A stretch of 47,903 bases of DNA from Chloroflexota bacterium (GTDB lineage: Bacteria > Chloroflexota > UBA11872): contig JAPPNP010000013.1 in the NCBI GenBank assembly GCA_028873795.1, forward strand, positions 1 to 47,903. The letters run 5' to 3'. The notes under the pieces were generated by a model. The model was given only the letters and a program-made list of their open reading frames with translations. It ran no database searches and had not been told where the DNA came from. Made by a program: the position numbers and the translations under genes. Positions 21,347 through 42,812 of the stretch are shown here, in pieces (position 1 is the first letter of the stretch; each line of letters begins with the position of its first letter).

Positions 21347-23452
21347 TCACGCGGAATCCGGCAGGTGGATCACGGCGCGCCCCCACGGTTCGATTTCGAC
21401 CTCGATGCCGCCGTCGATCACTGGCAGGTCCGTCTGGGTGAGCAAATCGTGTGCCGTCGCGGCAGGCTCGCGCGGACGCAGCCGGGAGCGCGCCACGCTG
21501 CGTTCGACATTGAATACGAATAGGAGACGCCCACCGAGTCGCGAGCGCCGCACGACCGGCACTACCCGATCGCCTGAAATCTCCACCGGCGCGGTCACGC
21601 CCGCGTCCCGCGCCAGGCCCAGCACCACCTCCGGCACCCCAACGTCGCCAAAGCCGGCCGACGTCGTGAGACCGAGCCACGTAAAGCGAGCGTCCTCCGT
21701 CTGCACCGCGACCGTGTCGCCGTCCAGCGTGGCCACGGCCTTGGACGCGCCCAGCGGCTCGAGGATGGCGTAGCCGCACTCGGAGGTGATCGAAAGGTCG
21801 CCGTAAGCCGTCGACAGTTGATTGCGACGCTCGCGGATATCGAATTCGGAGACTCCAGAGAAGTCGGCCACGCGCACGCCGAACCGCTCGGCGAATCCCT
21901 CCGGGGGCGCGTAGCTCGATTGGCCGTCGGCAGAGTACATCCCGAAACTGCCCTCGGCGACGAAACGCGTCTCGGGCGAGTTCTCGAGCGTCTCCTCGAT
22001 CCGGCCTTGCAGCTCCGCCGTCATCAGCGCCGCGTTGGGCATGATCACGAGCTTGTAGCCGGACCAGTCCATGTTGGGCGAGAGCACGTCGGCGGGGATG
22101 CCGTTGGCCCACAAGGTGCGGTAGACGCCGCGCACGTCGGCCACAAAGCGGTCGCCCTCCTCGTTGTAGTTGAACAGCTCCTGGGACTCTGGGTGATAGA
22201 TCACCGCCACGTCGGCCGGCGGGCAGTCCAGCGGCAGGTGCTCGCGCAGGCCCTGGATCTGCGAGACCGCTTCCTCGGCCGACGTGAGCCTTGGCGTGTC
22301 GCGCCCGTCGAGAGCCGTCAGGCAGTATCCGGGCGACTCGAAGCTCAGATACTCGGGTCGGTACTGCCAGAACATCGCCCCGGCGGCGCCGTGGGCCAGA
22401 GTCATCCAGAGCAGCGTCGTCGTCTCTTGCGGGTCCGACTGCTTGTTCCAGACCACCCCTCCCGGCGACATGCCGGCATAGATCTCCTCGTTCCACCAGC
22501 GACCGTTCTTGCCGACGCTGCGCGACCAGTCGAACGCAAAGGCCCGCTCGGCGATCTTGTACGGATCATCCGACGTGAGCAGGTTGTTGGACGGCATGGA
22601 CATGCCCCAACTGTCGGCGTAGGGGGCGCAAATCTCGTCCCAGGGCCGCGGAAACCACGCGCCGTGCGCTCGTTTCTCGTGGTGAGGGTCGATGGCGTTC
22701 GCCGTGTCCACCATCCACTTCAGGTGGTCGGCCAGGTTCTCGTAGTGGAACCGGCGATAGACCAGCATTTCGACGACGTTGTTGTGCGAGCGCGGCGGCT
22801 CCACGTCTTCCCAACGCCGATAGCGGCGCAGGAAGCGCTCGTTCAGCTCGTCGAGCGTGTACCGCTCGCGCAGCCAGGCCTTGTATTTCGCCAGCGTGTA
22901 GTCGCAGTAGCACGGATAGCCGCCGCCCTGCGGGCTCCAGGCCGCCGAGTAGTTGACGCCATCCCAGAGCCCCCAGATGAGCAAGCTCGGCCTGTCCTTA
23001 TATCTATTGATGACGTGCCGCAGCAGGCCGCCGCCGTACTCGCGCCAGGCCGGGTGGTCGTAACAGTGGATCACGCCGCCCTGCGGATAGGCCCCGCTCG
23101 CATGCGACGACACGGTTTGCCCCAGGTAGTTCACCACGCGCATGTCGGGGTGCTCGCGGGTCAGCCACTCCGGGCACGCGCCGTGGGTGCCCAGCATGAT
23201 GTCGAGCCACACGTAGAGCCCGTGTTTCTCCCCGAGGTCGAACATGAGGTCGAAGTCGTCCAGCTCGTAGCGCCCCGGCCGGGGCTCCATGTGGTTCCAG
23301 TAGGAGTGGCTGCGCACGATGCGCATACCCGCCGCCCGGATTCGGGCATAGTCGCCGTCCCAGACGTCGAGCTTCGGAATCGGCCCGCGGTAGTGCTCCG
23401 TGCCGACGGGAAACGGGTGGTCGGGAATGCTGACGAAGGCTGGCTCAGACAT
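21347..23452 (-). CDS. GH42 beta-galactosidase-like protein lacking the usual Asn-Glu
   Basis: 701 residues. A TIM barrel (about 10-380) is followed by a glutamine-amidotransferase-like trimerisation domain (about 390-600) and a C-terminal beta domain, as in GH42. The nucleophile region WWNEEIYAG (319-327, Glu322/323) and FWQYRPE (361-367) are present. Where GH42 has an Asn-Glu acid/base, this protein reads WGLWDG (160-165) followed by PCYC. So catalysis may be altered or use another residue. No signal peptide. ATG at 23452 is preferred over the 39-codon upstream extension, as the paralogue starts here and -10-like TAGCAT lies 39 nt upstream. Confidence 0.82.
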   Translation of the reverse strand: MSEPAFVSIPDHPFPVGTEHYRGPIPKLDVWDGDYARIRAAGMRIVRSHSYWNHMEPRPGRYELDDFDLMFDLGEKHGLYVWLDIMLGTHGACPEWLTREHPDMRVVNYLGQTVSSHASGAYPQGGVIHCYDHPAWREYGGGLLRHVINRYKDRPSLLIWGLWDGVNYSAAWSPQGGGYPCYCDYTLAKYKAWLRERYTLDELNERFLRRYRRWEDVEPPRSHNNVVEMLVYRRFHYENLADHLKWMVDTANAIDPHHEKRAHGAWFPRPWDEICAPYADSWGMSMPSNNLLTSDDPYKIAERAFAFDWSRSVGKNGRWWNEEIYAGMSPGGVVWNKQSDPQETTTLLWMTLAHGAAGAMFWQYRPEYLSFESPGYCLTALDGRDTPRLTSAEEAVSQIQGLREHLPLDCPPADVAVIYHPESQELFNYNEEGDRFVADVRGVYRTLWANGIPADVLSPNMDWSGYKLVIMPNAALMTAELQGRIEETLENSPETRFVAEGSFGMYSADGQSSYAPPEGFAERFGVRVADFSGVSEFDIRERRNQLSTAYGDLSITSECGYAILEPLGASKAVATLDGDTVAVQTEDARFTWLGLTTSAGFGDVGVPEVVLGLARDAGVTAPVEISGDRVVPVVRRSRLGGRLLFVFNVERSVARSRLRPREPAATAHDLLTQTDLPVIDGGIEVEIEPWGRAVIHLPDSA

Positions 23453-23490
23453 GCGGCAAGCCACGATGCGGGAAAAGGCGATACCGCGGC

Positions 23491-23496
23491 ATGCTA
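23491..23496 (-). promoter_or_regulatory. -10-like TAGCAT for the GH42-like gene
   Basis: TAGCAT on the minus strand is 39 nt before the ATG at 23452 and follows the TAnnnT pattern seen elsewhere in the window. No -35 match. Confidence 0.35.
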
Positions 23497-23591
23497 CTCG
23501 TCCAAGCGCGGCGGCGCGAGTGCCAAGTTGCATGGTGGTCGCAAGGCCCTGGCTTGGGACATGCGGCAACCTGTTGCGGCATTCCCACCCG

Positions 23592-23621
23592 TTGACATGC
23601 GAATTCGCGAAGGGGTATCGT
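23592..23621 (+). promoter_or_regulatory. Sigma-70-type promoter for the ABC transporter operon
   Basis: A perfect -35 TTGACA (23592-23597), an 18-nt spacer and -10 TATCGT (23616-23621). Predicted transcription starts near 23628, leaving a leader of about 330 nt before the ATG at 23960. This is the best promoter match in the window. Confidence 0.6.
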
Positions 23622-23959
23622 CGGCACCCGAACCGCCGTTAGACCGGTTGGGCCACTGCGTAGCAGCACACGCTGTGCACGCGAGGGAGGCTTGTCCAGC
23701 AGGTGGATTTCGACGGGAGTGCGCTCGTGCACACGGGCGCGCGAGTGGGGGGCAGACAGCGCCGGATGCATATGGCAGAATCCGGCGTGACGTTCGCGAC
23801 GCCATCCATTCAGACTGTGGCTAGTTCGCGTTTCTCGAGATTCGGCGCGCGTGGGAGCAGAGGACATGCGTGCGTCAGTCGTTCGTTGGCGCCACGCTGA
23901 GCGCCGAATCGGCGACCGGAGTGTCGCCAAGGGACCGTAGAGATCAGAAGGGGGAGAGG

Positions 23960-26077
23960 ATGACGAAGGACCTGTTGCTTAGTCGACGGCGAATGCTCGC
24001 CGTCACCGCGGGCGCCGCCGCCGTAGGCGTGCTGGCTGCTTGTGGCGAAGCTGAAGAAGAAGTAGCGGAGGCAACTCCGGCACCGGCGACCCCGGCTCCG
24101 GCGACTCCGGCACCGGCGACGCCGGCGGCCACGGCGGCTCCGGCCGCGACGGCCGCTCCGACCGCCGCCATGACCGAAGCCGCCATGGAAATGCCCGACC
24201 ACGAGCGCAACACGGGCATGACCTATGACCTCGGCAAGGAGTACAACGAAGCGCCGGCGCTGGCCGAAATGGTGGCCGCGGGCGAGCTTCCGCCGGTTGA
24301 AGAGCGCCTACCCGACGAGCCGCTGGTCTGGCAGCCGTGGGAAGCGATCGGCAACTACGGTGGCCGCACCAACTGGGCCAGCGTGGCGATCTCGGTGGAC
24401 ATTGGCAACGCCAACCGCACCGACGCCGTGGCTTACAACATGGAGGGCACCGCGCTCGTCAACGACGCCGTCAAGAGCCACCACGTGAGCTCCGACGGCA
24501 CCACCGTCGTCTACGAGTTGCGGAAGGGCCACAAGTGGTCGGACGGGGCGCCGTTCACGTCCGCCAACTTCCAGTGGCACTACGACAACTACATGGTGAA
24601 TGAAGAGCTGTCGCCGTCCGGCCCGGGCCCGAAGATCAACGGCAAGCCGCCGAATGTCGAGACGCCCGACGAGCTGACGGTTGAGATCTCCTACCCGGAC
24701 CCCGTGCCGATCCTGCTGGACCGGCTCGGCCGTGGTGGTAGCGAGCGCGGGTTCTACCTCTCCTCGCACTACATGGAGCAGTACCACGCGGACTTCAACG
24801 CGGACGCCCCGAAGATGGCGACCGACGAGGGGTTCGACGACTGGACGCAGCTCTTCAAAGCCAAGATGCGCTGGGGCGCGCACCAGACCTGGTTTACCGA
24901 GCATGCGGTGAACCGTCCGGTGCTGGCGCCGTGGACGCTGACGGCCCACTCGGCGGACCGAGCCTCGCTCGACCGCAACCCGTACTACCACATCGTCGAC
25001 ACCGAGGGGAACCAGCTTCCCTACGTGGACGGTCTGAACTACGAGCTGCTGTCGGACAAAGAGGTCTACCAGATCCGCATCACGGCGGGTTCGTTGGACT
25101 TCGGGCAGTTTGAGCTCGACTTCAACAACATGCCGCTGTACCGCGACAACGAGGGCTCGGGTAACTACCGGACGCTAATCAGCAAGGCGCTCCGAAGCTC
25201 GGCCTTGGCGCTCCAGCCCAACTGGACGTACAAGGACGCGGCGGTTGCCGAGATCTTCCAGGAGCTCGACTTCCGTATCGCGCTGTCAGTGGCCATCGAC
25301 CGCGACGCCATCAACGACGCGGTGTTCTTCGGTCTGGCGACCCCGTTCCAGGGGACCATCCTCCCGAGCTACACGTTCTACGAGGACCACTGGGGCACGA
25401 TCCACACCGAGTTCGACCCGGCCAAGGCCAACGAGCTGTTGGACGGCATCGGGTTGGACCAGAAGGACGCCGAGGGCTGGCGCCTGCGACCGGACGGCGA
25501 GCGCCTGACGCTGATCTTCGAGATCGGCGACCAGGAAGGCCCGAAGGACTCGATCGCCGAGTTGGTGGCCGAGAACTGGCGTGACGTCGGTCTCGACACC
25601 CAGTGGAACCAGATGGAGCGCCCGCTGTACGAGGAGCGCTTGGACCAGCTCACCGAGATCATGATCGGTACCGAGCACACGGAAGCCGCCGGGTACTTCA
25701 CCCGCTGGGTCCCGTGGGTCTGGGGCTACAAGGGCAAGCGAGCCGTCTGGGCCGGCGGTTGGACCCGCTGGTTCGCTACCGACGGCGCCGAGGGCGACGA
25801 GCCGCCGGCGGAGATCAAGGCCAACGCCGAGTTGAAGTTCGCCTGGCAGCTGGCTGCGCCCGGCACCGCCGAGTACGACGACCTTGGTCGGCAGTACTTC
25901 GGGTGGCAGGCGGAGCAGTTGACGGTGATCGGCACCGTGGGGCTTGCCCCGCAGCCGGTGATCATCAACAACCGGGTGAAGAACTTCCCGGACGACGAGG
26001 AGAACCTGTGGTTCGGCGCTGGGGCCAACTTCACGAAGCCCTACCGCGCGTTCCAGTGGTTCATCCCGGACGCATAG
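23960..26077 (+). CDS. Family-5 extracellular solute-binding lipoprotein
   Basis: 705 residues. The signal peptide has SRRRML (8-13), a twin-arginine-like motif, and a lipobox LAAC with Cys28, so it is a lipid-anchored binding protein exported folded. A low-complexity linker of ATPAP repeats (about 37-75) tethers the family-5 peptide/nickel-binding fold that follows. At 705 residues it is longer than most relatives (about 550). It captures oligopeptides or, as in some family-5 proteins of Thermotoga, oligosaccharides, and delivers them to the permeases downstream. The start ATG at 23960 follows a purine-rich GGGGGAGAGG; the upstream extension is rejected. Confidence 0.92.
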   Translation: MTKDLLLSRRRMLAVTAGAAAVGVLAACGEAEEEVAEATPAPATPAPATPAPATPAATAAPAATAAPTAAMTEAAMEMPDHERNTGMTYDLGKEYNEAPALAEMVAAGELPPVEERLPDEPLVWQPWEAIGNYGGRTNWASVAISVDIGNANRTDAVAYNMEGTALVNDAVKSHHVSSDGTTVVYELRKGHKWSDGAPFTSANFQWHYDNYMVNEELSPSGPGPKINGKPPNVETPDELTVEISYPDPVPILLDRLGRGGSERGFYLSSHYMEQYHADFNADAPKMATDEGFDDWTQLFKAKMRWGAHQTWFTEHAVNRPVLAPWTLTAHSADRASLDRNPYYHIVDTEGNQLPYVDGLNYELLSDKEVYQIRITAGSLDFGQFELDFNNMPLYRDNEGSGNYRTLISKALRSSALALQPNWTYKDAAVAEIFQELDFRIALSVAIDRDAINDAVFFGLATPFQGTILPSYTFYEDHWGTIHTEFDPAKANELLDGIGLDQKDAEGWRLRPDGERLTLIFEIGDQEGPKDSIAELVAENWRDVGLDTQWNQMERPLYEERLDQLTEIMIGTEHTEAAGYFTRWVPWVWGYKGKRAVWAGGWTRWFATDGAEGDEPPAEIKANAELKFAWQLAAPGTAEYDDLGRQYFGWQAEQLTVIGTVGLAPQPVIINNRVKNFPDDEENLWFGAGANFTKPYRAFQWFIPDA

Positions 26078-26093
26078 TCGCGACCTAAGGTCG

Positions 26094-26129
26094 CCGGGAG
26101 CCGCCGGTCATCCGGTCGGCGGCTCCCGG
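26094..26129 (+). terminator. Strong hairpin between binding protein and permease genes
   Basis: A perfect 13-bp stem (26094-26106 with 26117-26129) has a 10-nt loop and no T-run. Such hairpins after a binding-protein gene commonly stabilise its mRNA or partly terminate, giving more binding protein than permease. It begins 17 nt after the stop. Confidence 0.65.
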
Positions 26130-26235
26130 TGGCAACGGTCGTCGAATGTGCGCTACGGTAGCGAGCACCGCGACCAGACAGGACGGATGACGATACCGGC
26201 GAGTTGAGGTTGGGCGTCAGAGAGGGACGCAACGC

Positions 26236-27246
26236 ATGAGGGCATATCTGGTTCGACGCTTCCTGTTCATGGTCGTCGGCTGGTGGCTGCTGAGCGTGGT
26301 GGTCTTCATCGTCATCCAGCTTCCGCCGGGCGACTTCCTCACCAACTACATCGCGGGCCAGGAGCAGGCCGGGACGTTCCTCGAGCGTGAGGAAATCGAG
26401 TCTCTCAAGCTCTACTACGGCCTCGACCGCACGCCCATCGAGCAGTATTTCTACTGGGCAGGGCGTTTCGTGGTCGGCGACCTGGGTCGCTCATTCGGCA
26501 GCTGGCGCTCCGCCGAGCAGCCGGTCACCAAGATCCTCGCCGAGGTTCTGCCCTTCACGGTCATTCTGTCCACATTGGCGCTGATATTCACCTTTGCGGT
26601 GGCCATCCCGATCGGCATCTATTCCGCCACGCATCAGTATCGGCCTGGCGATTACTTCTTCACCGCCGTGGGCTTCATCGGCTTAGCGGTTCCAAACTTC
26701 ATGCTGGCATTGCTCTTGATGTACATGCTGTTCAAGTATTTCGACATCACGGCTGGCGGCCTGTTTTCGCCCGAGTATGCGCTGGCTGATTGGTCTGTCG
26801 AGAAAGTCATCGACATGCTCCAGCACCTCGTCGTGCCTGTGGTAGTGCTCGGCACTGCCGGCACCGCCAGTACCATGCGGGTGATGCGGGGCGTGCTGCT
26901 CGACGAGCTCGGCAAGCAGTACGTGATCACCGCCCGGGCGCGCGGCGTATCCGAGCGCAAGTTGCTCTTCAAGTACCCGGTGCGCCTGGCGCTCAACCCC
27001 ATCGTGAGCAGCACGGCCTACATTCTGCCGGGCATCTTCGGCGGCAATGCCATCGTCGCCATCGTCCTCAGTCTGCCGATGACTGGACCCGTCTTGTTGA
27101 CGGCCCTCAGGGCCCAGGACATGTTCCTCGCCGGGAGTATCGTCATGGTCGAAGGCGCGCTCGTAATCTTCGGAACGTTCCTTTCCGACATCCTATTGGC
27201 GCTGGTGGATCCGCGGATTCGCCAAGAGCGTGCCGTGGCGGCCTAG
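26236..27246 (+). CDS. ABC transporter permease, DppB/OppB type
   Basis: 336 residues, six predicted membrane helices starting with RRFLFMVVGWWLLSVVVFIVIQLPPGDFL. The EAA-type coupling loop (ITARARGVSERKLLFKYPVRLALNP, split here by position at about 235-260) contacts the ATPase. It forms the inner-membrane channel with the next gene's product. It sits 158 nt after the binding-protein stop. Family and orientation are secure; substrate is not. Confidence 0.93.
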   Translation: MRAYLVRRFLFMVVGWWLLSVVVFIVIQLPPGDFLTNYIAGQEQAGTFLEREEIESLKLYYGLDRTPIEQYFYWAGRFVVGDLGRSFGSWRSAEQPVTKILAEVLPFTVILSTLALIFTFAVAIPIGIYSATHQYRPGDYFFTAVGFIGLAVPNFMLALLLMYMLFKYFDITAGGLFSPEYALADWSVEKVIDMLQHLVVPVVVLGTAGTASTMRVMRGVLLDELGKQYVITARARGVSERKLLFKYPVRLALNPIVSSTAYILPGIFGGNAIVAIVLSLPMTGPVLLTALRAQDMFLAGSIVMVEGALVIFGTFLSDILLALVDPRIRQERAVAA

Positions 27247-27249
27247 CTT

Positions 27250-28389
27250 ATGGCTACAACTTCACTCGAACCCACCACCGGATCCGGCGTCTCAGTCCGT
27301 GAGTTCACCGAGGAAGAGCAGTATTACGTCGCCTCGCAGTGGCAGCTCATGTGGCGGAAGTTCCGCCGTCACCGCTTGGGCTACGCCAGCGGCGTGCTGC
27401 TGCTCCTTGGCTACTTCTTTGCCATCACCTACGACTTCTGGATCCCCTACGACTTCACGGACCGGCACGACAAGCTTTCCTCGCCGCCGACCCGCATTCA
27501 CGTGATCGACGCCAACGGGACGTGGCAAATGCCGTTCGTGCTCGGCACTCAGTCCGTCGTCGATCCGCAGTCGTTCAAGCGGACGTTTGTGGAGGACCCT
27601 GAGCTCGTCCATCCCATCGGCCTCTTCACACAAGGCGCCCCCTACAAGTTCTGGGGACTCTTCGACTGGGACCGCCACTTCTTCGGTGTCGAGGGAACGA
27701 CGATCCACTTGTTCGGCACCGATGACTTGGGGCGTGACGTTTTTTCGCGCACGCTATCCGCGGCCCGCATCAGCCTTTCGATCGGGCTGGTGGGCGTCAT
27801 TCTCAGCTTCGTCCTTGGCGTCATCATCGGGGGAATCTCGGGCTACTTCGGCGGCACGGTTGACCTGCTGATCCAGCGGTTCATCGAATTCGTAATTTCG
27901 GTCCCCACCATTCCGCTCTGGATGTCGCTGAGCGCCGCGGTGCCCATCACCTGGTCGCCGCTGCAGACCTACTTCGCCATCACTATCGTGCTCTCGGTGG
28001 TCGGTTGGGCCGGCTTGGCCCGCGTCGTGCGCGGGAAGATCCTCGAGCTGCGCGAGAACGACTATGTGATGGCAGCCCGAGTAGCCGGCGCCGGCAACAT
28101 GCGCGTGCTATTCGACCACCTGGTGCCCGGCTTCATGAGCTACCTGATCGTGCACCTCACGTTGCAGGTGCCGAGCATGATTCTGGCTGAAACGACACTG
28201 AGCTTCCTGCGGCTGGGCATCCGCGCTCCCGCCGTGAGTTGGGGCACGCTCATGCAGGACGCGCAAAACGTAAGCGTGATCGCGGTCTTCCCCTGGCTGA
28301 TGATTCCGGGGCTCTTCGTAATCATCGCGGTGTTCCTCTTCAACTTCCTGGGCGACGGCCTGCGGGACGCCGCAGACCCGTACCGATAG
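27250..28389 (+). CDS. ABC transporter permease, DppC/OppC type, extended
   Basis: 379 residues. A cytoplasmic N-terminus and first helix (about 48-66) are followed by an outward-facing stretch of roughly 90 residues before GTDDLGRDVFSR, where typical DppC proteins have about 35. The coupling loop is AARVAGAGNMRVLFDHLVP. The extra segment may help dock the unusually large binding protein. It starts 3 nt after the DppB-type stop, so translation is coupled. Confidence 0.92.
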   Translation: MATTSLEPTTGSGVSVREFTEEEQYYVASQWQLMWRKFRRHRLGYASGVLLLLGYFFAITYDFWIPYDFTDRHDKLSSPPTRIHVIDANGTWQMPFVLGTQSVVDPQSFKRTFVEDPELVHPIGLFTQGAPYKFWGLFDWDRHFFGVEGTTIHLFGTDDLGRDVFSRTLSAARISLSIGLVGVILSFVLGVIIGGISGYFGGTVDLLIQRFIEFVISVPTIPLWMSLSAAVPITWSPLQTYFAITIVLSVVGWAGLARVVRGKILELRENDYVMAARVAGAGNMRVLFDHLVPGFMSYLIVHLTLQVPSMILAETTLSFLRLGIRAPAVSWGTLMQDAQNVSVIAVFPWLMIPGLFVIIAVFLFNFLGDGLRDAADPYR

Positions 28390-28396
28390 GCGAGCC

Positions 28397-29434
28397 ATGA
28401 CAGAAGAACAAGCACCCGTCGCCGCGCCCGAATCTGGGGCGCTCACGGACGAAGACGTCATCCTCGAGTTGAACGACGTCCGAACGTACTTCGAGCTGGA
28501 TGAAGGAACGCTGAAGGCCGTTGACGGCGTCTCGTTTGCCGTTCGGCGCAACGAAACGCTCGGAATCGTCGGCGAGTCCGGTTGCGGCAAGAGCGTCACC
28601 GGCCAGTCGATTCTCCGCATCGTGCCCAAGCCCGGCGATACGCAAGGCAACATCTGGTTGCGGCGCAACGGCGAAACGGTCGACCTTGCGTCGCTCCACC
28701 CGTCCGGCCGCGAAATTCGCGACGTCCGCGGGCGCGACATCGCCATGATCTTCCAGGAGCCGATGACGGCGTTCTCGCCGGTGCACAGTGTCGGCAACCA
28801 GATCATGGAAGCCATCCTGGTGCACGAGGACGTTTCGAAGCAAGCTGCCCGCGAGCGTGCCATCGAGGTCCTGAGCCAGGTGGGCATTCCGGAAGCCGAG
28901 CGCCGCGTCGACGCCCTGCCGCACGAGCTCTCCGGCGGAATGCGGCAGCGAGCCATGATCGCCATGGCGCTGGTGCTACGCCCCAAACTCCTCATTGCCG
29001 ACGAGCCCACGACTGCACTGGACGTGACAATCCAGGCCCAGATTCTGCGTCTAATGCAGGACCTGCAGAAGGAAATGGGCATGTCGATCATGTTCATCAC
29101 CCACAACCTGGGCGTGATTGCGAACATGGCCGACCAGATGATCGTGATGTACCTCGGGCGCGTCGTCGAGCAGGGCTCGGTCGAGACCATCTTCGGCGAG
29201 CCGCAACACCCGTACACCCAGGCCCTCATGGAATCGATCCCGCGGATCGGATTGACGCGTGGAGAGCGCCTCAGCTCGATTGCCGGCACCGTGCCGGTGC
29301 CGCTGAATCCGCCCGAGGAATGTGGCTTTTCCTCCCGCTGTCCCAAGTTCATCCCCGGCCGCTGCGACGCCAAGGTGCCGGACATGATCGAATCGTCGCC
29401 TGGCCACCACGTACGGTGTGTGCTCTATGAGTAG
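28397..29434 (+). CDS. ABC transporter ATPase, DppD/OppD type
   Basis: 345 residues: Walker [10 protein letters not shown]-loop QEPMTAFSP, signature LSGGMRQR, Walker B LLIADEP. The C-terminal oligopeptide-transporter region carries four cysteines (CGFSSRC, GRC, VRC), the site of the iron-sulfur cluster known in some DppD proteins. It powers import with the DppF-type partner. 7 nt after the DppC-type gene. Confidence 0.94.
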
Positions 29435-30503
29435 CGAGCAAGAGATGCAGAGCGACTCAACCCAGCCCATGTCGACTGAGACATCCAACGGGCAAGCCGC
29501 CAACACCATTCTCGAGATCGAGGGGCTCAAGAAGTACTTCCCTATCGAGAAGGGCCTGCTGCGGCGGGTTGTTGGCTACGTGCGGGCCGTTGACGACGTC
29601 AGTCTTTCGATTTCAGAGGGGAAGACGCTCGGTCTCGTCGGCGAATCTGGATGCGGCAAGACCACACTCGGCCGTTGCGTGGTGCGCGCCATCGAGCCCA
29701 CCGACGGCAGCGTTCGCATGCATGTCGACAACGAAGACACTGAATTGACAGAGCTCGGCTCGCGCGAGTTGCGCGAATACCGGCGCAACCTGCAGATGGT
29801 CTTCCAGGACCCCTACTCCAGCCTCGATCCCCGAAAGACGGTGCTGGACATCGTGGGTGAGCCCCTGCGGATTCACAATGTGGCGCGCGGCCGTGAGCTC
29901 GAGACTCGCGTGAGCGAGTTGCTCGAAGTCGTGGGTCTGGATATTCGCTACCTCAAGCGCTACCCACACGCGTTCAGCGGCGGGCAGCGTCAGCGCATCG
30001 GCATTGCTCGCGCCTTGGCCTTGAATCCCAAGGTCATCATCTGCGACGAAGCCGTCTCGGCGCTCGACGTCTCGGTCCAAGCGCAGATCATCAACCTGTT
30101 GGAAGAGTTGCAGGAAGAGTTCGGCATTGCCTATCTGTTCATCGCGCACGACCTGAGCGTCGTCGAGCACATCTCCGACGAGGTGGCGGTGATGTACGTG
30201 GGCAAGGTCGTCGAGCACGCCTCGACGGAAGAGCTCTTCAGCAACCCGAAGCACCCCTACACCGAGGCCCTCATGTCGGCGGTGCCGCTCCCGGACCCCA
30301 AGCGGAAGCTCCAGGAGATCACGCTGGAGGGCGAAGTGGCCGACCCGGCGGACCCGCCGAGCGGCTGCTATTTCCACCCGCGCTGCCGCTACGCTCAGGA
30401 CCGCTGCCGCGAGGAGACCCCCGAGTTGCGCGTGGTTGGCAGCGGGCACGAATCGGCCTGTCACTTTGCCGAGGAGCTTGATCTTCGCGGCGTAACCGCT
30501 TGA
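29427..30503 (+). CDS. ABC transporter ATPase, DppF/OppF type
   Basis: 358 residues: Walker [11 protein letters not shown]-loop QDPYSSLDP, signature FSGGQRQR, Walker [15 protein letters not shown]-terminal cysteine set is present ([14 protein letters not shown]). ATG at 29427 overlaps the DppD-type stop by 8 nt; a GTG at 29418 is an alternative. The N-terminal 25 residues are Ser/Thr/Gln-rich and probably flexible. It completes the five-gene importer. Confidence 0.93.
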
Positions 30504-33752: not shown

Positions 33753-33798
33753 CGGATACGCTGAGGGCGACGGGTCCGTGAACCTCGGAGATTCCCCA

Positions 33799-34704
33799 AT
33801 GACGCCAGAGCAAATCCTCTCCTACCCGCCGCGCGTGCTCACCCAGGCTCAGCGCGAGTCGTACTTCGAAAAGGGGTATGTCCTCGTCGAGAACGTCGTG
33901 CCCGACGAGTGGATCGAGCGGCTGCGCGACGTCACCAACGAGTTTGTCGAGCGCAGCCGTGAAATCACGGAATCCGACGCCGTGTGGGACCTGGAGCCCG
34001 ACCACACCGCCGAGAATCCGAGACTGCGCCGCCTCACCAGCCCCGTCGAGCAGCACCCTGCCTATTGGGAGTTCGCGTCGGACTCCATCGTGGCCGACGT
34101 CGCGGCCGACATCGTGGGGCCGGACGTCAAGTTCCACCACTCCAAGCTGAACTTCAAGTGGGCCGAAGGCGGCGAAGAGGTCAAGTGGCACCAGGACATT
34201 CAGTTCTGGCCGCACACGAACTACTCGCCGGCGACCATCGGCACCCTGCTCTACGACTGCGGTCCCGATCAAGGCCCGCTCGGCGGGCTTCCGGGGAGCC
34301 AAAACGGCCCGCTGTTCGACCTTTACAACGAGGACGGGTCGTGGAACGGCGCGCTGTCCGACGCCGACGCGGCCTCCCTGAATCTCGAGAACGTCGAATA
34401 CATGACCGGACCGGCGGGTTCACTCACGATTCACAACTGCCGCACCGTCCACGGATCGCCGCCAAACCAATCGGACACCGGGCGGCCCCTGTTGCTCTAT
34501 GCCTATTCATCCGCCGATGCCTTCACCTACACCTACAATCCGATTATGTCGAGTTACTACGGCACGATCGTGCGCGGCAAGCCCGCCCTCTATGCCCACC
34601 ACGATCCGCGGCCGTGCCAGATTCCGCCGGACTGGTCGGGGGGCTACCAGTCCCTCTTCGCGACGCAGCAAGGTGAGGACGAGGCCGTAGCTCCCGGCAT
34701 GTAG
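33799..34704 (+). CDS. Phytanoyl-CoA dioxygenase (PhyH) family oxygenase
   Basis: 301 residues. Iron triad His131-x-Asp133 (KWHQDIQFWPH) and His218 (TVHGSPPN), 2-oxoglutarate Arg229. It is larger than the 9118 protein and closer in layout to PhyH/EctD-like hydroxylases; the substrate is unknown. ATG at 33799 has CGGAG upstream; a GTG at 33778 is in frame. Convergent with another PhyH gene, 18 nt between stops. Confidence 0.9.
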   Translation: MTPEQILSYPPRVLTQAQRESYFEKGYVLVENVVPDEWIERLRDVTNEFVERSREITESDAVWDLEPDHTAENPRLRRLTSPVEQHPAYWEFASDSIVADVAADIVGPDVKFHHSKLNFKWAEGGEEVKWHQDIQFWPHTNYSPATIGTLLYDCGPDQGPLGGLPGSQNGPLFDLYNEDGSWNGALSDADAASLNLENVEYMTGPAGSLTIHNCRTVHGSPPNQSDTGRPLLLYAYSSADAFTYTYNPIMSSYYGTIVRGKPALYAHHDPRPCQIPPDWSGGYQSLFATQQGEDEAVAPGM

Positions 34705-34722
34705 GCCAGCACCGACGCTGAA

Positions 34723-35925
34723 TCACGTGACGGGATCAGGCAGCTTGGCAGCCGCGCCCCAGCTGGCAATGAACTCGTCGACGCCAAATCCTGCCGGCAT
34801 GTCGTTGTAGCTGTAGCCCGCCGGACCGTCTTGAAAGCCGGGCACGAAGTGGTCGGCCGGTGCGCGCAGCGCGGCGTCGAGCGCGGCAAACCGGCGCCCG
34901 AGCGTTTCGATTTCGCCGGCGGTGAAGGCGTCGGCGATGTCCTTGCGGCGGTCGTAGCCGGCACTTCGAGTCTCGGCGAGGCTCGGGAGCCGCAAGACGA
35001 GCTTGGACAGCAGCACCAGGGCCACCATTCGTCCCTCGACGCCGGGATGAAGGATCGCAAGCTCACGCACGAATCCGTCGGCGTCCCGCCGCATGGCGGC
35101 GCGCAGCACCGCCTCGATCACCCGCCGCTCGTCGGCATGCAACTCGACGAACCGCTCGAATTGGCGGCGCGTGGCCGCGGATAGCCGGCTGGTGAAGCCA
35201 AGGTCCCAGTTGAACGCATGGGCGTGCGGATAGATGGCGGCGCCGAACGCTCGATAGCCCAGATGCACCGTGCGGCGCAGCCTGGCGCTGTAGTCGCTGC
35301 CCCAGTGCAGCATCGTGTTCAGATAGACCACGGCGTCTCCCGCGTTCAGCTCCACCGGAATGCCGCCGGGCAGAGGCGCCGAGGCGTCGTGCGCAAGCGC
35401 CCGGTTCTCCTCATCGGTGTTCACGCGCCAGTGGCTTCCGGGAACCACCCACAGCACCGCGTCGTCATGCAGCGGAATATTCCACTGCACGTACGCCGGG
35501 CCATTGACTCGCGCGTCGTGCTGCAACCCCGCCAGCGGCGCCAGCGACGCCGGCCGGATATCCCGGTGCCATCGATCCGGCCCGTGGTCCTCCGTGGGGT
35601 TGCACATCAGCGACATCAGCGTCGGCGCGGCGTGAGGCGCCCGCATCAGCCGGCGGCTCATGCCCAGGGTGCCGTCGTCGAGGCAGAACTCGACCGCTTC
35701 CGCCGTTGAAGCATCAACGACGGTCTGGATCAGGACGCGCGGCTGACGAGCAAAGTAGCTATCTGGCCAGCGTCCGGCGGCATCGCGCTCACGCCGCCAC
35801 CGGTCAAACTGTCGCCGGACCAGCACTTCAAAGCTCGCCCGCAGCCCGTCGAGCCGCTCGGTCGAAATGGTCCGCGGGATGATCACGTAGCCCTGGTCCA
35901 ACAGTTGGGCCCGCAAGTCAGGCAT
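34723..35925 (-). CDS. PhyH-family oxygenase with long C-terminal extension
   Basis: 400 residues. Iron triad His120-x-Asp122 (DRWHRDIRP) and His207 (TMLHWGSD), followed by RRTVHLGYR. Beyond about residue 230 there is a 170-residue mostly helical extension of unknown role. It starts 11 nt after the SRAP stop and so belongs to the sulfatase-SRAP-PhyH operon. A role in modifying a sulfated or methylated substrate is speculative. Confidence 0.86.
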   Translation of the reverse strand: MPDLRAQLLDQGYVIIPRTISTERLDGLRASFEVLVRRQFDRWRRERDAAGRWPDSYFARQPRVLIQTVVDASTAEAVEFCLDDGTLGMSRRLMRAPHAAPTLMSLMCNPTEDHGPDRWHRDIRPASLAPLAGLQHDARVNGPAYVQWNIPLHDDAVLWVVPGSHWRVNTDEENRALAHDASAPLPGGIPVELNAGDAVVYLNTMLHWGSDYSARLRRTVHLGYRAFGAAIYPHAHAFNWDLGFTSRLSAATRRQFERFVELHADERRVIEAVLRAAMRRDADGFVRELAILHPGVEGRMVALVLLSKLVLRLPSLAETRSAGYDRRKDIADAFTAGEIETLGRRFAALDAALRAPADHFVPGFQDGPAGYSYNDMPAGFGVDEFIASWGAAAKLPDPVT

Positions 35926-35936
35926 GCCCTAAACCC

Positions 35937-36644
35937 CTAGAAGAGCGAACGCTGCGTATCCGCGTCCGGCGCTGGCTGCGACTCCGGCGCGGCAACCGGT
36001 TCGATCAATTCAGGTCCATTGTTCGCGACGGCGTTCACCGCCCGACTGACCGGATAGCTGCAGAGCACGTCTTCAGCCGCCGGTCGCAACAAGGCGGCCT
36101 GCCAGCCCGGGTCATCGTCATCGGCCGAGAGCCACGCATCCCAGTCGCCCGGCTCCAGGATCGCCGGCATGCGATGGTGGATGGCCGACATCCAGGCGCT
36201 CGGGCCCGTGGTGATGATCGTGAACGAACGACCGAACTCACCGTGCCGCTCCCAGAGCCCGGCCAGCGCCAGCGGCCGGCCGTCGGCCCGCCGAATGTAG
36301 AGGGGCTGCCGCCGCTCTCGCGGACCCGTCCATTCGTAGAAGCCGTCAGCCGGCACCAGGCAGCGGCGCGCACGAAACGCGGCGCGAAAGGCCGGCTTGT
36401 CGGCCACCGTCTCGGCACGCGCGTTGATGGTGCGCGCGCCGAACCGCGCCTCCTTGGCCCACGCGGGTATGAGCCCCCATCGCATGGACTCGAAGCGCCG
36501 CGGGCCGTCCACCACCACCAGCGACTGCTGGGTGGGCGCCACATTGAAGCTCGGCAGCGGCACGTCGGTTGCAACGAGCGGCGCACTCTTGAAGAAGTCC
36601 GCCAGGACCTGCGGGTCCGAATGACGGCTATACCGTGCACACAA
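35937..36644 (-). CDS. SOS-response-associated peptidase (SRAP/YedK/HMCES family)
   Basis: 235 residues. After Met removal Cys2 (MCARYS) becomes the N-terminal nucleophile that crosslinks abasic sites in single-stranded DNA. Asn34 (FNVAPTQ), Glu104 (DGFYEW) and the His of HHRMP complete the site. The start must be TTG at 36642-36644, because only there is Cys residue 2; GGAGG lies 11 nt upstream. It is a DNA-protection protein, oddly placed between a sulfatase and an oxygenase on the same strand. Confidence 0.94.
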   Translation of the reverse strand: MCARYSRHSDPQVLADFFKSAPLVATDVPLPSFNVAPTQQSLVVVDGPRRFESMRWGLIPAWAKEARFGARTINARAETVADKPAFRAAFRARRCLVPADGFYEWTGPRERRQPLYIRRADGRPLALAGLWERHGEFGRSFTIITTGPSAWMSAIHHRMPAILEPGDWDAWLSADDDDPGWQAALLRPAAEDVLCSYPVSRAVNAVANNGPELIEPVAAPESQPAPDADTQRSLF

Positions 36645-36694
36645 GGGCAGTGGCGCCTCCAGTCGAGGCCAGCGTCATTGCCATGGTGACACGC

Positions 36695-37972
36695 CTAGCG
36701 CGTAAGGCCGCGCATCGCCCGGCGATAGAAGGGCGACGCCACCGGTCCGTCCAGCAGCGGATCGCCGGTCTCATGCATCCAGCTCGCCAGCCTGGCTTCC
36801 AGCTCGGCCTCCACGCTCCCGTACTCCGGGCGTCCCGCGAGATTCGTCCATTCGTGGGGATCCGACCGTAGGTCGTACAGCTCGACCGGTGCATGCACCG
36901 ACGGCTCCAATCGTCCGGCCAGGTCGCGATAGGCCCCGCCGCCGGCGATGTCCGTTGGAATCTCCACGCCCAATCCGGCCTCGAAATTCCGGATGTACTT
37001 CCAATCGGCGGTTCGGACGCCGCGCATGGGGTCGTAGTAGCTGTGATAGGTCTTTTCGACAAACAGCTCGGCGTGCCCCTTTGACTCGCCGGCGGCCAGC
37101 GGCAGCAGCGACCGGCCATGCAGACCCGACGGGGGCTCGGCGCCCGTCAGGTCGATCAGGGTTGGCACGACGTCCATGATGCTGGCCAGGCCGGTGGGAG
37201 CGACACCGTCGCTAAGCGCGGTGCCCGGTAGGCGGGCGATCAGGAAAATCTCGATGCCGGGGTCGTAGAGCGTGCACTTGGCTCGGGGAAACGCAATGCC
37301 GTGGTCGCTCACGAAGAGCACCAGGGTCCGATCGAGCAGACCGCGATTCTCGAGCACTCCGACAAGCTGACCGACGTGCACATCGGCCCGATGGACACAG
37401 CCCTGAAAGTCCGCCAGGTCGGCGCGTGTATCGGGGGCGTCCACCAAGTACCCGGGCACGGTGATCCCCCTGGCGTCGAACCGCACGCCGCCGAAGCCGT
37501 GGTCGCCCACCCGGTGGGTTTCCGTGAGCCCAATCTGCGCCACAAACGGTCGCCCGGGGTCGGCATCGATGAATGCGCCAACCCCCGCGACGATCGATGC
37601 CATGTCACGGCCCTCGTCGTAGACGTCGTTGCCCACGCGCAGCGGATCGCGCGCCGCGTGTTCAACGCCCCAGTGACCGCTGCGGTAGCCCGCCGTGCGC
37701 AAGATCTGCGGAATGGTGCGCTCATTCGGGTGCAGATCCCAACGGTGCTCGCCGTGCGTGAGCCCCATCGTCCCGTTGGCATGGGGGTACCGGCCGGTTG
37801 TCAGGCTCGCGCGGCTTGGTGAGCACTGCGGCGCGGTGGTGTAGGCGTTGAATCGCGCCCCTTCGCCAGCGAGGCGGCTCAGGTTCGGCGTGGCCACGCT
37901 GCCAACGCCGTACGGCTCGATGAACCGGCCCGTGTCGTGCGTCGTGATGATCAGGACGTTCGGCAGCGCCAT
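36695..37972 (-). CDS. Sulfatase (formylglycine-dependent, type I)
   Basis: 425 residues. Cys50 in CSPSR (50-54) is the residue converted to formylglycine, followed by TTGRYPHANG. SDHGIAFPRAK and the N-terminal HDTG provide metal ligands. It hydrolyses sulfate esters, probably of a carbohydrate or steroid. No signal peptide is seen, so cytoplasmic action on imported material is likely. No maturase gene is in the window. ATG at 37972 is preferred; TTG three codons upstream is possible. First gene of its operon. Confidence 0.92.
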   Translation of the reverse strand: MALPNVLIITTHDTGRFIEPYGVGSVATPNLSRLAGEGARFNAYTTAPQCSPSRASLTTGRYPHANGTMGLTHGEHRWDLHPNERTIPQILRTAGYRSGHWGVEHAARDPLRVGNDVYDEGRDMASIVAGVGAFIDADPGRPFVAQIGLTETHRVGDHGFGGVRFDARGITVPGYLVDAPDTRADLADFQGCVHRADVHVGQLVGVLENRGLLDRTLVLFVSDHGIAFPRAKCTLYDPGIEIFLIARLPGTALSDGVAPTGLASIMDVVPTLIDLTGAEPPSGLHGRSLLPLAAGESKGHAELFVEKTYHSYYDPMRGVRTADWKYIRNFEAGLGVEIPTDIAGGGAYRDLAGRLEPSVHAPVELYDLRSDPHEWTNLAGRPEYGSVEAELEARLASWMHETGDPLLDGPVASPFYRRAMRGLTR

Positions 37973-38105
37973 GAACCCCAATGTAGGAGGCAGCGCACGT
38001 GGATGTATATCGCGCGCGTCAGGACTGCGCCGGCAGACGGCGCTTCGAGACCCAAAGCTTCGCGTTGCGAGGCGCGGTTCGGACGATCAGCTCTGGGACC
38101 GGTGC

Positions 38106-39197: not shown

Positions 39198-39212
39198 CCC
39201 CCGGAATCTCGT

Positions 39213-39228
39213 GTATTACATATTGTAC
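39213..39228 (-). promoter_or_regulatory. AT-rich promoter/operator of the vapBC pair
   Basis: The minus strand has TACAAT (39222-39227), 25 nt before the antitoxin ATG, within an imperfect palindrome bounded by GTA and TAC. AT-rich against a GC-rich background. Autorepressor site inferred. Confidence 0.45.
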
Positions 39229-39296
39229 GACATGCGGCCCGACCCAACTTAGGCAGACTCGCCGGCTGGGAAACTTCGCGATCCGCGGCAAGTCAG

Positions 39297-39851: not shown

Positions 39852-39984
39852 AGCTCGATCCTTTCTCGAATCGGTTTCGCGAGCCCCTGATTACCCGAGA
39901 ATCGCATTCGCCTTGGGGCGATCAGTGGACGGTGGCTGCGCGCCACTGTATCCGGGCAATTCGGACCCGACCATTCGGCGCCGC

Positions 39985-39990
39985 TAGACT
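39985..39990 (+). promoter_or_regulatory. -10-like TAGACT for the RidA-like gene
   Basis: TAGACT, 34 nt before the ATG at 40024, identical to the elements at 9086 and 6158. No -35 consensus. Confidence 0.4.
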
Positions 39991-40023
39991 CCGTGGAGCC
40001 ACAGACGCACCGGAGCCCTCGCC

Positions 40024-40482
40024 ATGTCGCCGGAGGACCGCCTCGCCGCTTTGGGAATCGACCTGCCAGACCTGCCGCCTCCGCTCCCGGACGCGCCCTA
40101 CATTCCGGCCGTGGTGACGGGTGACCTCGTGTGGGTGTCGGGCCACTCCCCCGGCGGCGCCTGGCGTCCGGGCCAGGTCGGCACGGACTACACGGTCGCC
40201 GAGGCCAAGCAGGCCGCGCGGGCGGCCGGGATTGGGCTGCTGGCCGCCGCGCGCTCTGTGGTCGGCTCACTCGATCGTATCGATCGCGTCGTGCGCATGC
40301 TGGGTCACGTGAACGCCGCGCCGGGGATGGACCAGGCCGGCGAGGTCGTCAACGGCTGCTCGGAGCTGATGCTCGAGGTGTTCGGGCCCGAGGGCCGCGG
40401 GGTCCGCTCCGCAGTGGGCGTGGGCACCATGCCGCGCAACGTCCCGCTGTCCGTCGAGGCGGTGTTTCAACTCAAGGCTTAA
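40024..40482 (+). CDS. RidA/YjgF-family protein
   Basis: 152 residues of the YjgF/UK114 fold, longer subgroup (about 150 residues). Arg128 in VRSAVGVGTMPRNVP corresponds to the arginine that holds imine or enamine substrates. It may deaminate reactive enamines from PLP enzymes; no direct evidence links it to a neighbour. GGAG 7 nt before the ATG. Confidence 0.88.
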   Translation: MSPEDRLAALGIDLPDLPPPLPDAPYIPAVVTGDLVWVSGHSPGGAWRPGQVGTDYTVAEAKQAARAAGIGLLAAARSVVGSLDRIDRVVRMLGHVNAAPGMDQAGEVVNGCSELMLEVFGPEGRGVRSAVGVGTMPRNVPLSVEAVFQLKA

Positions 40483-40712
40483 CCTTAACGCTGCGGCAAA
40501 CACTTCGTCGCGCGGTCGAATCCGGTCGACTTCACACTGCCGTCGGCTCAGACGCTTGAAATTTATGTCAACCCGTCGACCGCATTGCGGGGCATGTGAC
40601 CACCGAACCGTCCGCCCCTTGACGGCCCACGCCGGCCGCACCACCATGCTCCCCGAACGCCTCCACGCATCGCTCGCCCAGTGGCGACCGCGCCGCGCAG
40701 CAAGGGGTTGAC

Positions 40713-42812
40713 GTGTCCAACAACGATGGCCGCTTCGGCATCCCCGGCGTTCCGTTCCCGGTGGGCGTGGAGTACTACCGCGCGCCGGTTCCCAAGCCGG
40801 AGCTGTGGGACGAGGACTTCGCGCGCATTCGTGCCGGCGGCATGCGCGTCATTCGCACCTTTAACTATTGGAACCACCTGGAGCCGCGCCCCGGTCTCTA
40901 CGAGACCGACGATATCGACCTGCTCTTCGATCTGGCCCACAAGCACGACTTGCGCGTCTGGCTCGACCTTCCCTTGGCCACGCACGGCGCGTGCCCCGAG
41001 TGGCTCACGCGCGAGCATCCCGACATGCGCGTGGTCAGCTACCGCGGCCACGTATCGCTGACGGGCGCCAGCCCCGCCTATCCCCAGGGCAGCCAGATCC
41101 ACTGCTACGACCATCCCGCCTGGCGCGAGTACGGTGAGAACCTGCTGCGCTACATGATCGGCCGTTACAAGGATCACCCGGCCCTGCTGGTGTGGGGCCT
41201 TTGGGACGGCATCGCGCTGTCGGCTGCCTGGAGCAAGACCTCCGACGGCTTGCCCTGCTATTGCCCCAGCACGCTCGCGCGCTACGACGCTTGGTTGCGC
41301 GAGCGCTTCACGCTCGACGAGCTCAACGCTCGCGTGCACCGCCGCTATCGCCGCTGGGAAGACGTGCAGCCCCCGCGATCGAATCAAAACGTCGTCGAGA
41401 TGCTGCTGTACAAGCAGTTCCATTACGAGAACCTGGCCGGCCACTTGCAGTGGGTCATGGACGTCGCCAACGACGTGGACCCCGTGCACGAAAAGCGCTC
41501 GCACGGCGCCTGGTATCCGCGCCCGCAGGACACCGTCTGCGCGCCGGTCGCCGACAGTTGGGGCATGTCCATGTCGTCCAACAACCTGCTCACGTCCGAG
41601 GACCCCTACAAGCTGTCGGAGCGGGCCTTCGGCTACGACTGGTCCCGCAGCATCGGCAAGAACAATCGCTGGTGGAACGAGGAGATCTACTCGGGCATGT
41701 CACGCGGCGGCGTCACGTGGCGCAAGCAGTCGGCGCCCGAGGAGCCAACCATGCTGCTCTGGATGTGCCTGGCCTCGGGCGGCGCCGGCGCCATGTATTG
41801 GCAGTATCGGCCCGAGTACTTCAGCTTCGAGTCGCCGGGCTACAACCTCATCGCGCTTGACGGCGAGCCCACCGCCCGCTGGCGAGCGACCAGCGAGGCG
41901 CTGTGCCAAATGGCCGGCATGGAAGAGCACCTGCCGCTCAGGTGCGACACCGCGGACGTGGCCGTCGTCTACCACGGCGAGTCCCAGGAGCTTTTCAGCT
42001 ACAACGACGAAGACGACCGCTACCTTGATGACGTGCGCGGCGTGCACCGCACGCTCTGGGCCAACGGCATTCCGGTCGACATCGTGTCACCGGGCATGGA
42101 CTGGTCGCCGTACCGCCTGATCTATCTGACCAACGCCGCGATGATGACCGACGAGCTGCGCCGGCGCATCGAGCAGACCCTCAGCGACAACCCCGATGTG
42201 CAGCTTGTGGCGGACGGAAGCTTTGGGCTGTATTCGGCCGACGGCCAATCGTCCTATGGCCCCCCGGAAGGCTTTTCGGAACGCTTTGGGGTACGCGTGG
42301 CGGATTTCAACGCCATCACCGAGGGTGACATCGACGCCGGACGGAACGTGCTCCAAGCGGGCGACGGAACCATTCCGATCAGCACCCCGTGCGGCTACGC
42401 CGTCCTCGAGCCCAAGAACGGGGCAACGGCCATCGCCTCGCTCGATGGTGAGACCGTGGCCGTCCGCAGTCCCGACGGCCGGTTCACCTGGTGGGGACTG
42501 TCGCTGTCGGCCGGATTCGGCAACGCCGGACATCCCGACCTGGTGCTCCCGCCCGTGCGGACGGCCGGCATCGAGGCCCCGCTGGCAATCGATGGATCGG
42601 GCGTGGTGCCGGTGGTCCGCGGATCGGCCAACGGCGGCGACGTGGCCTTTCTGTTCAACCTCGAGCGCTCCGACGCCAACGTCACCGTCCGTCCGCATCG
42701 CCCCGTGGGTTCGGCGCGCAATCTGCTCGCCAAGGCCGACCTACCCCTACGCGACGGCGGATTCGAAATCTCGATCCCGGCTTGGAAGCACGCGGTGGTG
42801 CACCTGGCCTAG
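40713..42812 (+). CDS. GH42 beta-galactosidase-like protein lacking the usual Asn-Glu (paralogue)
   Basis: 699 residues and collinear with 21347-23452 over its length (CYDHPAWREYG, SWGMSM.SNNLLTS.DPYK, WWNEEIY.GMS.GGV.W, SADGQSSY.PPEGF). It has the same substitution: WGLWDG (161-166) at the acid/base position, with the nucleophile-region WWNEEIYSG retained. No signal peptide. GTG start at 40713 with AAGGGG upstream. The nearby genes are a RidA-like protein and a convergent BNR protein, again pairing this family with a propeller. Confidence 0.83.
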   Translation: MSNNDGRFGIPGVPFPVGVEYYRAPVPKPELWDEDFARIRAGGMRVIRTFNYWNHLEPRPGLYETDDIDLLFDLAHKHDLRVWLDLPLATHGACPEWLTREHPDMRVVSYRGHVSLTGASPAYPQGSQIHCYDHPAWREYGENLLRYMIGRYKDHPALLVWGLWDGIALSAAWSKTSDGLPCYCPSTLARYDAWLRERFTLDELNARVHRRYRRWEDVQPPRSNQNVVEMLLYKQFHYENLAGHLQWVMDVANDVDPVHEKRSHGAWYPRPQDTVCAPVADSWGMSMSSNNLLTSEDPYKLSERAFGYDWSRSIGKNNRWWNEEIYSGMSRGGVTWRKQSAPEEPTMLLWMCLASGGAGAMYWQYRPEYFSFESPGYNLIALDGEPTARWRATSEALCQMAGMEEHLPLRCDTADVAVVYHGESQELFSYNDEDDRYLDDVRGVHRTLWANGIPVDIVSPGMDWSPYRLIYLTNAAMMTDELRRRIEQTLSDNPDVQLVADGSFGLYSADGQSSYGPPEGFSERFGVRVADFNAITEGDIDAGRNVLQAGDGTIPISTPCGYAVLEPKNGATAIASLDGETVAVRSPDGRFTWWGLSLSAGFGNAGHPDLVLPPVRTAGIEAPLAIDGSGVVPVVRGSANGGDVAFLFNLERSDANVTVRPHRPVGSARNLLAKADLPLRDGGFEISIPAWKHAVVHLA

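Follow-up and report, generated by a model that had tools for sequence, protein, structure and literature searches.

Genes of the locus and their neighbours

The window, a stretch of 47,903 nucleotides, contains two genes encoding GH42-like proteins, here called WDG proteins. P0002 (21347..23452, minus strand) encodes 701 amino acids; P0001 (40713..42812, plus strand) starts with GTG and encodes 699 amino acids. Both reading frames are intact, and the products are 65% identical over a gap-free alignment of 689 amino acids. Both score above the Pfam cut-offs for the GH42 domain (126.3 bits for P0002 and 116.9 bits for P0001, cut-off 21) and for the GH42 trimerisation domain (42.6 and 35.9 bits, cut-off 25.8). 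At an E-value of 0.01 the two proteins matched the Pfam families GH42, GH42M and GH35 and nothing else. The genome contains five copies of this type, all with the motif WDG, and five copies per genome are also found in the genus.

A Sortilin/BNR-type propeller gene (19353..21287, minus strand; NCBIfam F510_1955, 182.4 bits against 175) lies 59 bases downstream of P0002 on the same strand. A BNR_2 propeller gene (42891..44099, minus strand; Pfam) is convergent with P0001 at a distance of 78 bases. The first-pass annotation, which had placed a BNR/Asp-box gene next to each paralogue, was correct in this, but the two genes are of different kinds. Divergent from P0002 is a group of oligopeptide-type ABC uptake genes (23870..30503, plus strand), encoding a binding protein, two permeases and two ATPases; judged from gene placement only, it is a possible uptake route. 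A sulfatase-family gene (36695-37981) lies between P0002 and P0001.

In the relatives the association with BNR genes holds in part: a BNR gene recurs within 5.1 kb in 22 of 51 rows and is absent from the examined flanks in the other 29, a count that describes placement and not unbiased enrichment, since the profile itself derives from proteins encoded beside WDG genes. The sole background for this count is the 34 BNR_2 matches in the genome of the window. Stop-to-stop frames were used for counting because gene calling had lost some overlapping genes, including the one at 42891. A Pfam scan of 30 representative neighbour proteins yielded BNR_2, DHDPS-type and HpcH/HpaI aldolases, a CoA transferase, an M20 peptidase, DNA repair proteins, a hydantoinase and others, and no common substrate marker among them. 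Several loci share DHDPS-type and HpcH/HpaI-type neighbours, counted here as a raw recurrence.

Catalytic positions

The motif WGLWDG occupies residues 160-165 of P0002 (22958..22975, minus strand) and 161-166 of P0001 (41193..41210, plus strand). The motif WWNEEIY occupies residues 319-325 of P0002 (22478..22498, minus strand) and 320-326 of P0001 (41670..41690, plus strand). In a profile alignment with the PDB chains 8ibr, 8ibs and 8ibt, G165 of P0002 aligns with the acid/base Glu160, so that D164-G165 stand at the site of the Asn and the acid/base Glu, and E323 aligns with the nucleophile Glu318. These catalytic positions are anchored by the PDB titles, 8ibs being an E160A/E318A mutant and 8ibt an E318S mutant. 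The Glu that follows Asn at strand 4 in GH42 is thus lacking from the WDG proteins, and the nucleophile Glu at strand 7 is present as E323.

The site was aligned across the relatives and the PDB chains, and the alignments rule out that the Asn-Glu motif was misplaced or lies in another segment. All 59 WDG relatives with letters at the site have D-G, all 53 outgroup proteins with letters there have Glu, and no intermediates were found; a chance origin of the motif is excluded by these counts. Every one of the 62 WDG rows with a residue at this position retains E323, as does each of the 63 rows of alignment A5. E322, the first Glu of NEE, was considered as the nucleophile and rejected: the PDB nucleophile corresponds to E323, a residue that the outgroup also keeps without exception. 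The initial description of both proteins as GH42-like, with WWNEEIY kept and WGLWDG at the Asn-Glu site, is thereby borne out by the Pfam scores and the alignment with the PDB chains.

One further position differs. Arg121 of Bbrebetagal-III is given in PMC12887932 as the conserved -1-subsite Arg of GH42. The corresponding column 127, which lies in a gapped region of the alignment, has Arg in none of the 59 WDG proteins (Q, M, V, A or C instead) and in 33 of the 53 outgroup proteins.

Distribution and conservation of the branch

The titles of the records that hold the D-G relatives name seven bacterial groups; many of these records are presumably of marine and sponge origin, as read from the isolate names. 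The candidates scored were the two best per genome in one search and up to five per genome in another. They were divided into WDG and outgroup by profile score at 400 bits, and one fragment (L031; 377.7 bits, 208 amino acids) that reads WGLWDG was reassigned to WDG for the final counts. This gave 64 WDG and 56 outgroup rows, of which 5 and 3, respectively, have no letters at the site and were dropped from the counts. The 59 members form 29 clusters at 90% identity and so are not 59 independent cases.

In a quick tree, constructed without bootstrap and carrying a warning of long branches meeting, the WDG proteins form one side of a single branch with a stem of 1.98. This well-separated branch, together with the uniform D-G, agrees with the earlier suggestion of a subfamily. 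The motif is invariant down to 36% pairwise identity. The dN/dS ratio is 0.077-0.151 in the seven tested pairs, and 0.077-0.099 for the window genes against their orthologues. The first-pass annotation is upheld in two respects: the change is common to both proteins while the remaining sequence is conserved, and for the window genes these purifying values, with the intact frames, exclude decay.

Structural model and clade-specific residues

The model of P0002, built from 63 sequences, has a pLDDT of 93.1 and the GH42 fold, with the barrel, the trimerisation domain and the C-terminal beta domain; with only 7 sequences the pLDDT was a poor 64.0. Comparison with the GH42 structure 5e9a gives a Z of 38.7 and an rmsd of 2.7 A over 644 aligned residues, and GH35 and GH164 structures have similar scores. 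WGLWDG ends the strand 157-164, and E323 is within the strand 319-325. Zinc binding by cysteines is known from GH42 enzymes.

The WDG proteins share with the GH42 beta-galactosidases (8ibr/8ibs/8ibt, 5e9a, 1kwg) the Pfam GH42 and trimerisation domains, the fold over nearly the full length and the Glu of strand 7. They differ from them in the absence of the acid/base Glu, in Asp for the preceding Asn, in the loss of Arg121, and in several residues of their own. A Thr-His-Gly segment with an invariant H90 is inserted after strand 3, within the motif THGACPEW (residues 89-96 of P0002, 23165..23188, minus strand; residues 90-97 of P0001, 40980..41003, plus strand). By comparison with the outgroup, D84, H90, D164, E259, R261 and E322 are invariant in the branch and specific to it. 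Five of these, H90, D84, D164, E259 and E322, are titratable and absent or rare outside the branch, which leaves room for an acid/base that has moved. Since further changes have been fixed only in this branch, the active site appears to have been rebuilt and not to have decayed. Most likely, to judge from the sequences, the WDG proteins are a distinct and functional GH42-like branch with a rebuilt active site, and the proposal of another chemistry or substrate for this subfamily is plausible.

Possible mechanisms

In PMC8861115, mutation of the acid/base in the related enzyme IaSGT left <0.4% activity, so that a bare loss of this residue should severely impair the normal reaction. The best reading is that the WDG proteins are active cytosolic retaining-type glycosidases in which the acid/base role has moved (to H90 with D164 or D84) or is unneeded. 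To its more specific form, a GH42-like glycosidase or transglycosidase with a rebuilt site, acting on small imported glycosides and having H90 in place of the Glu, we assign a probability of about 0.4. From the end of strand 7, E323 would attack the anomeric carbon as the GH42 nucleophile does. With the Glu at the end of strand 4 gone (G165), the acid/base role would be taken by H90 on the inserted segment, paired with D164 or D84. A His-Asp acid/base is known from NagZ. D164, replacing the Asn beside the acid/base, could favour binding, in the -1 subsite, of a sugar with a 2-amino group or another positive charge, and the substrates, small imported glycosides, would be handled in the cytosol. 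We infer that the proteins are catalytic, that H90 acts as the donor, that they work in the cytosol and that their substrates are of this class; H90 may merely bind the substrate.

The hint at an amino sugar comes by analogy, because the same replacement of Asn by Asp marks the GH35 exo-beta-glucosaminidases GlmA (6jow, 5gsm), whose Asp at the place of D164 (invariant, 59/59) is held responsible for amino-group specificity (PMC8861115). The folds are similar (Z 34.7 and 34.5 against the P0002 model for 6jow and 5gsm). However, GlmA keeps the acid/base Glu, unlike the WDG proteins with G165 in 59/59, and with the GlmA family model NF041127 the two proteins score just 20.7 and 21 bits, far short of its cut-off of 1500. 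No consistent amino-sugar genes were observed in the neighbourhood, one PIG-L deacetylase being present among the 30 neighbour proteins. The fullest scenario, with a single loss of the strand-4 Glu, transfer of its role to H90 (with D84 or D164) on the small inserted loop, and cytosolic 2-amino-sugar glycosides as substrates, is unlikely to hold in every part.

GH164 provides a structural comparison. The beta-mannosidase Bs164 has a GH42-like three-domain build (Z 32.8 against the P0002 model) and, unlike the WDG proteins, both catalytic Glu (PMC7105311).

Another possibility, rather improbable in our judgement, is that the proteins do not cut sugars at all and are sugar-binding or scaffold proteins with a retained pocket, E323 and the other fixed residues binding the ligand. 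The acid/base is indeed missing throughout, and the propeller proteins that adjoin some members might be assisted by WDG proteins. On the other hand, the nucleophile, kept in every row with letters there, is not needed for binding alone.

Unlikely as well is a mechanism with no enzymic acid/base, in which E323 would act on glycosyl sulfates, esters or phosphates, or on thio- or N-glycosides, by displacing their good leaving group, and water or an acceptor would be activated by an external or substrate-borne base. The precedent is GH1 myrosinase, where, according to PMC8585081, one Glu is kept, the other is Gln, and ascorbate substitutes for it as the base; myrosinase is of another family, and has Gln where the WDG proteins have Gly. 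Retention of the nucleophile with loss of the acid/base agrees with this, as does the sulfatase-family gene between the two window genes. However, the joint fixation of H90, D84, E259, R261 and E322 with the loss would remain unexplained, and a particular activated substrate is marked by none of the 30 neighbour proteins scanned.

It is distinctly less probable that D164 serves as the catalytic acid, a role that has been proposed for D474 in the GH153 hydrolase PgaB. According to PMC5933820, D474 is the counterpart, by alignment, of the Asp in the Asp-Glu pair of GH20, the second residue is absent, D474N is inactive, and the structural neighbours include GH42 and GH35. D164, invariant and located at the end of strand 4, and followed by G165, fits this pattern by sequence. 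However, PgaB is periplasmic and has a groove for a long polymer, and the WDG proteins matched no PgaB-type Pfam family. The comparison also presupposes that the Asp-Glu pair of GH20 corresponds to the Asn-Glu pair of GH42. Moreover, the Asp at the same place in GlmA serves amine recognition and Glu remains the acid (PMC8861115).

Decay, with the motif as an inherited lesion, can be dismissed for the window genes: broken copies exist elsewhere (L082, from Spirochaetia, lacks the segment from THGACP to RWWNEE and hence the site; one copy in G462 is split between frames), but the low dN/dS, the intact frames, the invariance of the motif at large distances and the contrast of D-G in 59/59 with Glu in 53/53 refute it.

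Implications

A profile match is often taken as an assigned function. The WDG branch matches a beta-galactosidase profile and yet lacks the usual acid/base Glu, and since half of the catalytic pair is lost in 59/59, annotation as beta-galactosidase is unsafe. Word matching in open-access literature, which is not proof of absence, named no GH42-like proteins without the acid/base among the matches listed. If active, the WDG proteins would be a natural experiment, a retaining glycosidase without the usual acid/base. To our knowledge such enzymes have few precedents, namely myrosinase and possibly GH153. The five copies per genome in the genus suggest that the activity of these proteins matters to the bacteria. 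The branch is well conserved and occurs in several groups of uncultured bacteria.

Catalytic site of the GH42-like paralogues

Two real open reading frames in the window, P0002 (21347-23452, minus strand) and P0001 (40713-42812, plus strand), encode proteins that align without gaps at 65% identity. Pfam assigns GH42 and trimerisation domains to both, with scores far above the cut-offs. The structure of P0002 predicted from a 63-sequence alignment (mean pLDDT 93.1, pTM 0.93) matches the GH42 structure 5e9a over nearly its full length (Z 38.7, rmsd 2.7 Å, 644 residues), and also GH42 structures 1kwg (Z 35.2) and 8ibr (Z 33.4). Since GH35 enzymes GlmA and IaSGT and a GH164 structure score Z 32.8-34.9, the fold by itself does not pick out GH42. 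No hydrophobic leader is visible by eye at either N-terminus, where the barrel begins directly, and both proteins are thus taken as cytosolic.

The catalytic positions were placed by aligning a 28-member profile to PDB chains 8ibr, 8ibs and 8ibt. The segment W160-G-L-W-D-G165 (P0002 numbering) falls on the strand ending in Asn-Glu160 of these chains, and W319-W-N-E-E323 on that ending in Glu318; strands 4 and 7 of the P0002 model span residues 157-164 and 319-325. PMC12887932 identifies the acid/base as Glu160 and the nucleophile as Glu318. The entry titles describe 8ibs as E160A/E318A and 8ibt as E318S. Thus E323 is the kept nucleophile, Gly165 stands at the acid/base place and Asp164 replaces the preceding Asn. 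This alignment with characterised GH42 enzymes bears out the first-pass annotation, according to which both paralogues lack the Asn-Glu pair and keep the nucleophile region. The proteins are GH42 by profile, fold and nucleophile, but not by acid/base, and are classed as a GH42-like branch, here called WDG. GH42-like proteins outside this branch, split off by profile score at 400 bits, serve as the outgroup.

The picture drawn from the alignment is that of a rebuilt pocket. Like D164 and G165, residues D84, H90, E259, R261 and E322 do not vary within the WDG branch and are seen seldom or never elsewhere. D84 is located where strand 3 ends. H90, present in 58/58 WDG rows, lies within a T-H-G insertion; the outgroup is gapped there in 55/57. 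Neither E259 and R261 on strand 5 nor E322, which precedes the nucleophile, occurs in any of 54 outgroup rows. The sole outgroup case of D84, H90 and D164 is locus L031, itself a WDG fragment. GH42 enzymes conserve Arg121 in the -1 subsite (PMC12887932); at this position (column 127) Arg is seen in 0/59 WDG rows versus 33/53 outgroup rows. Cys130, Cys181 and Cys183 are each retained in 53 of 59 WDG rows; in the six remaining rows of each column the letter is N, P and N, respectively. The Latescibacteria and Lentisphaeria rows inspected have HNF in place of HCY.

Distribution and selection

All five GH42-like genes of the source genome carry WG[LI]WDG. Five matches were found in each of five genomes of the same genus (two of those in genome G004 are pieces), and matches occur in 9 of 13 genomes of the sister genus, as a single one in eight and as two pieces in the ninth. 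A species-genome collection was scanned for DSWGMSM and RWW[NH]EEI, two patterns that do not overlap the WDG motif, giving 47 loci out of 100 stretches. The record titles name Chloroflexi, Dehalococcoidia or SAR202 for 31 loci, Poribacteria for five, Gemmatimonad for five, Latescibacteria for two, Lentisphaeria for two (one MAG), Planctomycetaceae for one and Spirochaetia for one, several of these titles sharing a phylum in the collection's own grouping. The Spirochaetia locus (L082, about 10000-11222) is a broken relative in which the segment between the THGACP region and RWWNEE, and hence the WDG site, is gone. On a Lentisphaeria MAG contig (L076), the gene for a WDG protein (4893-7028) is followed after about 6.6 kb by one for a GH42-like protein whose site is the normal W-N-E (13593-15782).

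Profile searches in 400 genomes of the source phylum, 64 of the phylum of the Latescibacteria locus and 199 of that of the Planctomycete yielded the outgroup proteins and further WDG members. In one GH42-like outgroup match (L175, G601:C1:1756617-1758197) the search counted an internal TGA, although translation of this place gave an open frame of 695 residues. After pooling, all 59 unique WDG rows that are not gapped at the site have D-G there (they form 29 clusters at 90% identity), and all 53 such outgroup rows (50 clusters) have the acid/base Glu, preceded by N in 50, Q in two and E in one. No intermediate between the two types of site was observed among these 59 and 53 rows. The lowest pairwise identity between full-length WDG members is 36%.

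A quick maximum-likelihood tree places the 53 WDG rows together on the same side of a single branch (SH-aLRT 100); its stem length is 1.98 changes per column, and the program cautioned that long branches meet in this tree. The main inference of the first pass, a conserved subfamily, holds. Comparison of P0002 with three orthologues gives dN/dS ratios of 0.077-0.086, and that of P0001 with two orthologues gives 0.098 and 0.099; the ratios of two further pairs are 0.151 and 0.096. Such low values rule out decay as the cause of the shared change in the tested genes.

Gene neighbourhood

P0002 and a BNR/Sortilin-type gene (19353-21287) lie on the same strand, 59 bases apart, and an oligopeptide-type ABC uptake operon is divergent from P0002. 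The gene convergent with P0001 is of the BNR_2 type (42891-44099), and the BNR-type neighbours noted earlier thus hold for both paralogues. Of 51 WDG rows, 18 have such a BNR_2 gene within 3 kb, in 17 cases 17-95 bases away; a limit of 5.1 kb raises the number to 22, many of which are orthologues. For 29/51 none was found in the available flanks. The lineages involved are Chloroflexi (two arrangements), Latescibacteria and one Planctomycete (786 bases). The source genome (3.18 Mb) contains 34 BNR_2 matches; contigs C41 and C78 have seven apiece. The BNR_2 profile reaches solved sialidases. We take the link to be moderate and lineage-limited, and not evidence for sialic acid.

Hydantoinase/oxoprolinase-type genes lie near P0001 (44033-47790), and members of the same gene cluster occur near WDG genes at loci L039, L044, L055, L067 and L071. 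The window also encodes a dimethylformamidase-beta-like and laminin-G-type protein (2586-4991), a GHL10 glycosyl-hydrolase-like gene (17001-18950) and, between the paralogues (33778-37981), two phytanoyl-CoA-dioxygenase-type genes and one sulfatase-family gene.

Candidate mechanisms

The retained E323 argues for a covalent, retaining route. The first-choice candidate proton donor is H90, since it is invariant and sits on an insertion, in the loop leading into strand 4, that is nearly exclusive to the WDG branch. The acid/base of GH3 NagZ is a His with an Asp partner. The second candidate is D164. According to PMC5933820, the probable catalytic acid of GH153 PgaB is an Asp that corresponds in alignment to the first member of the Asp-Glu pair of GH20; the enzyme has no counterpart of the Glu of that pair and acts on partly deacetylated PNAG. 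In both precedents, PgaB being one, an Asp at the D164 place is tied to amino sugars, which is a hint rather than proof. A third option is that a WDG enzyme would need no acid, for which myrosinase is the precedent (PMC8585081).

The WDG branch itself is wider than the two paralogues of the window.
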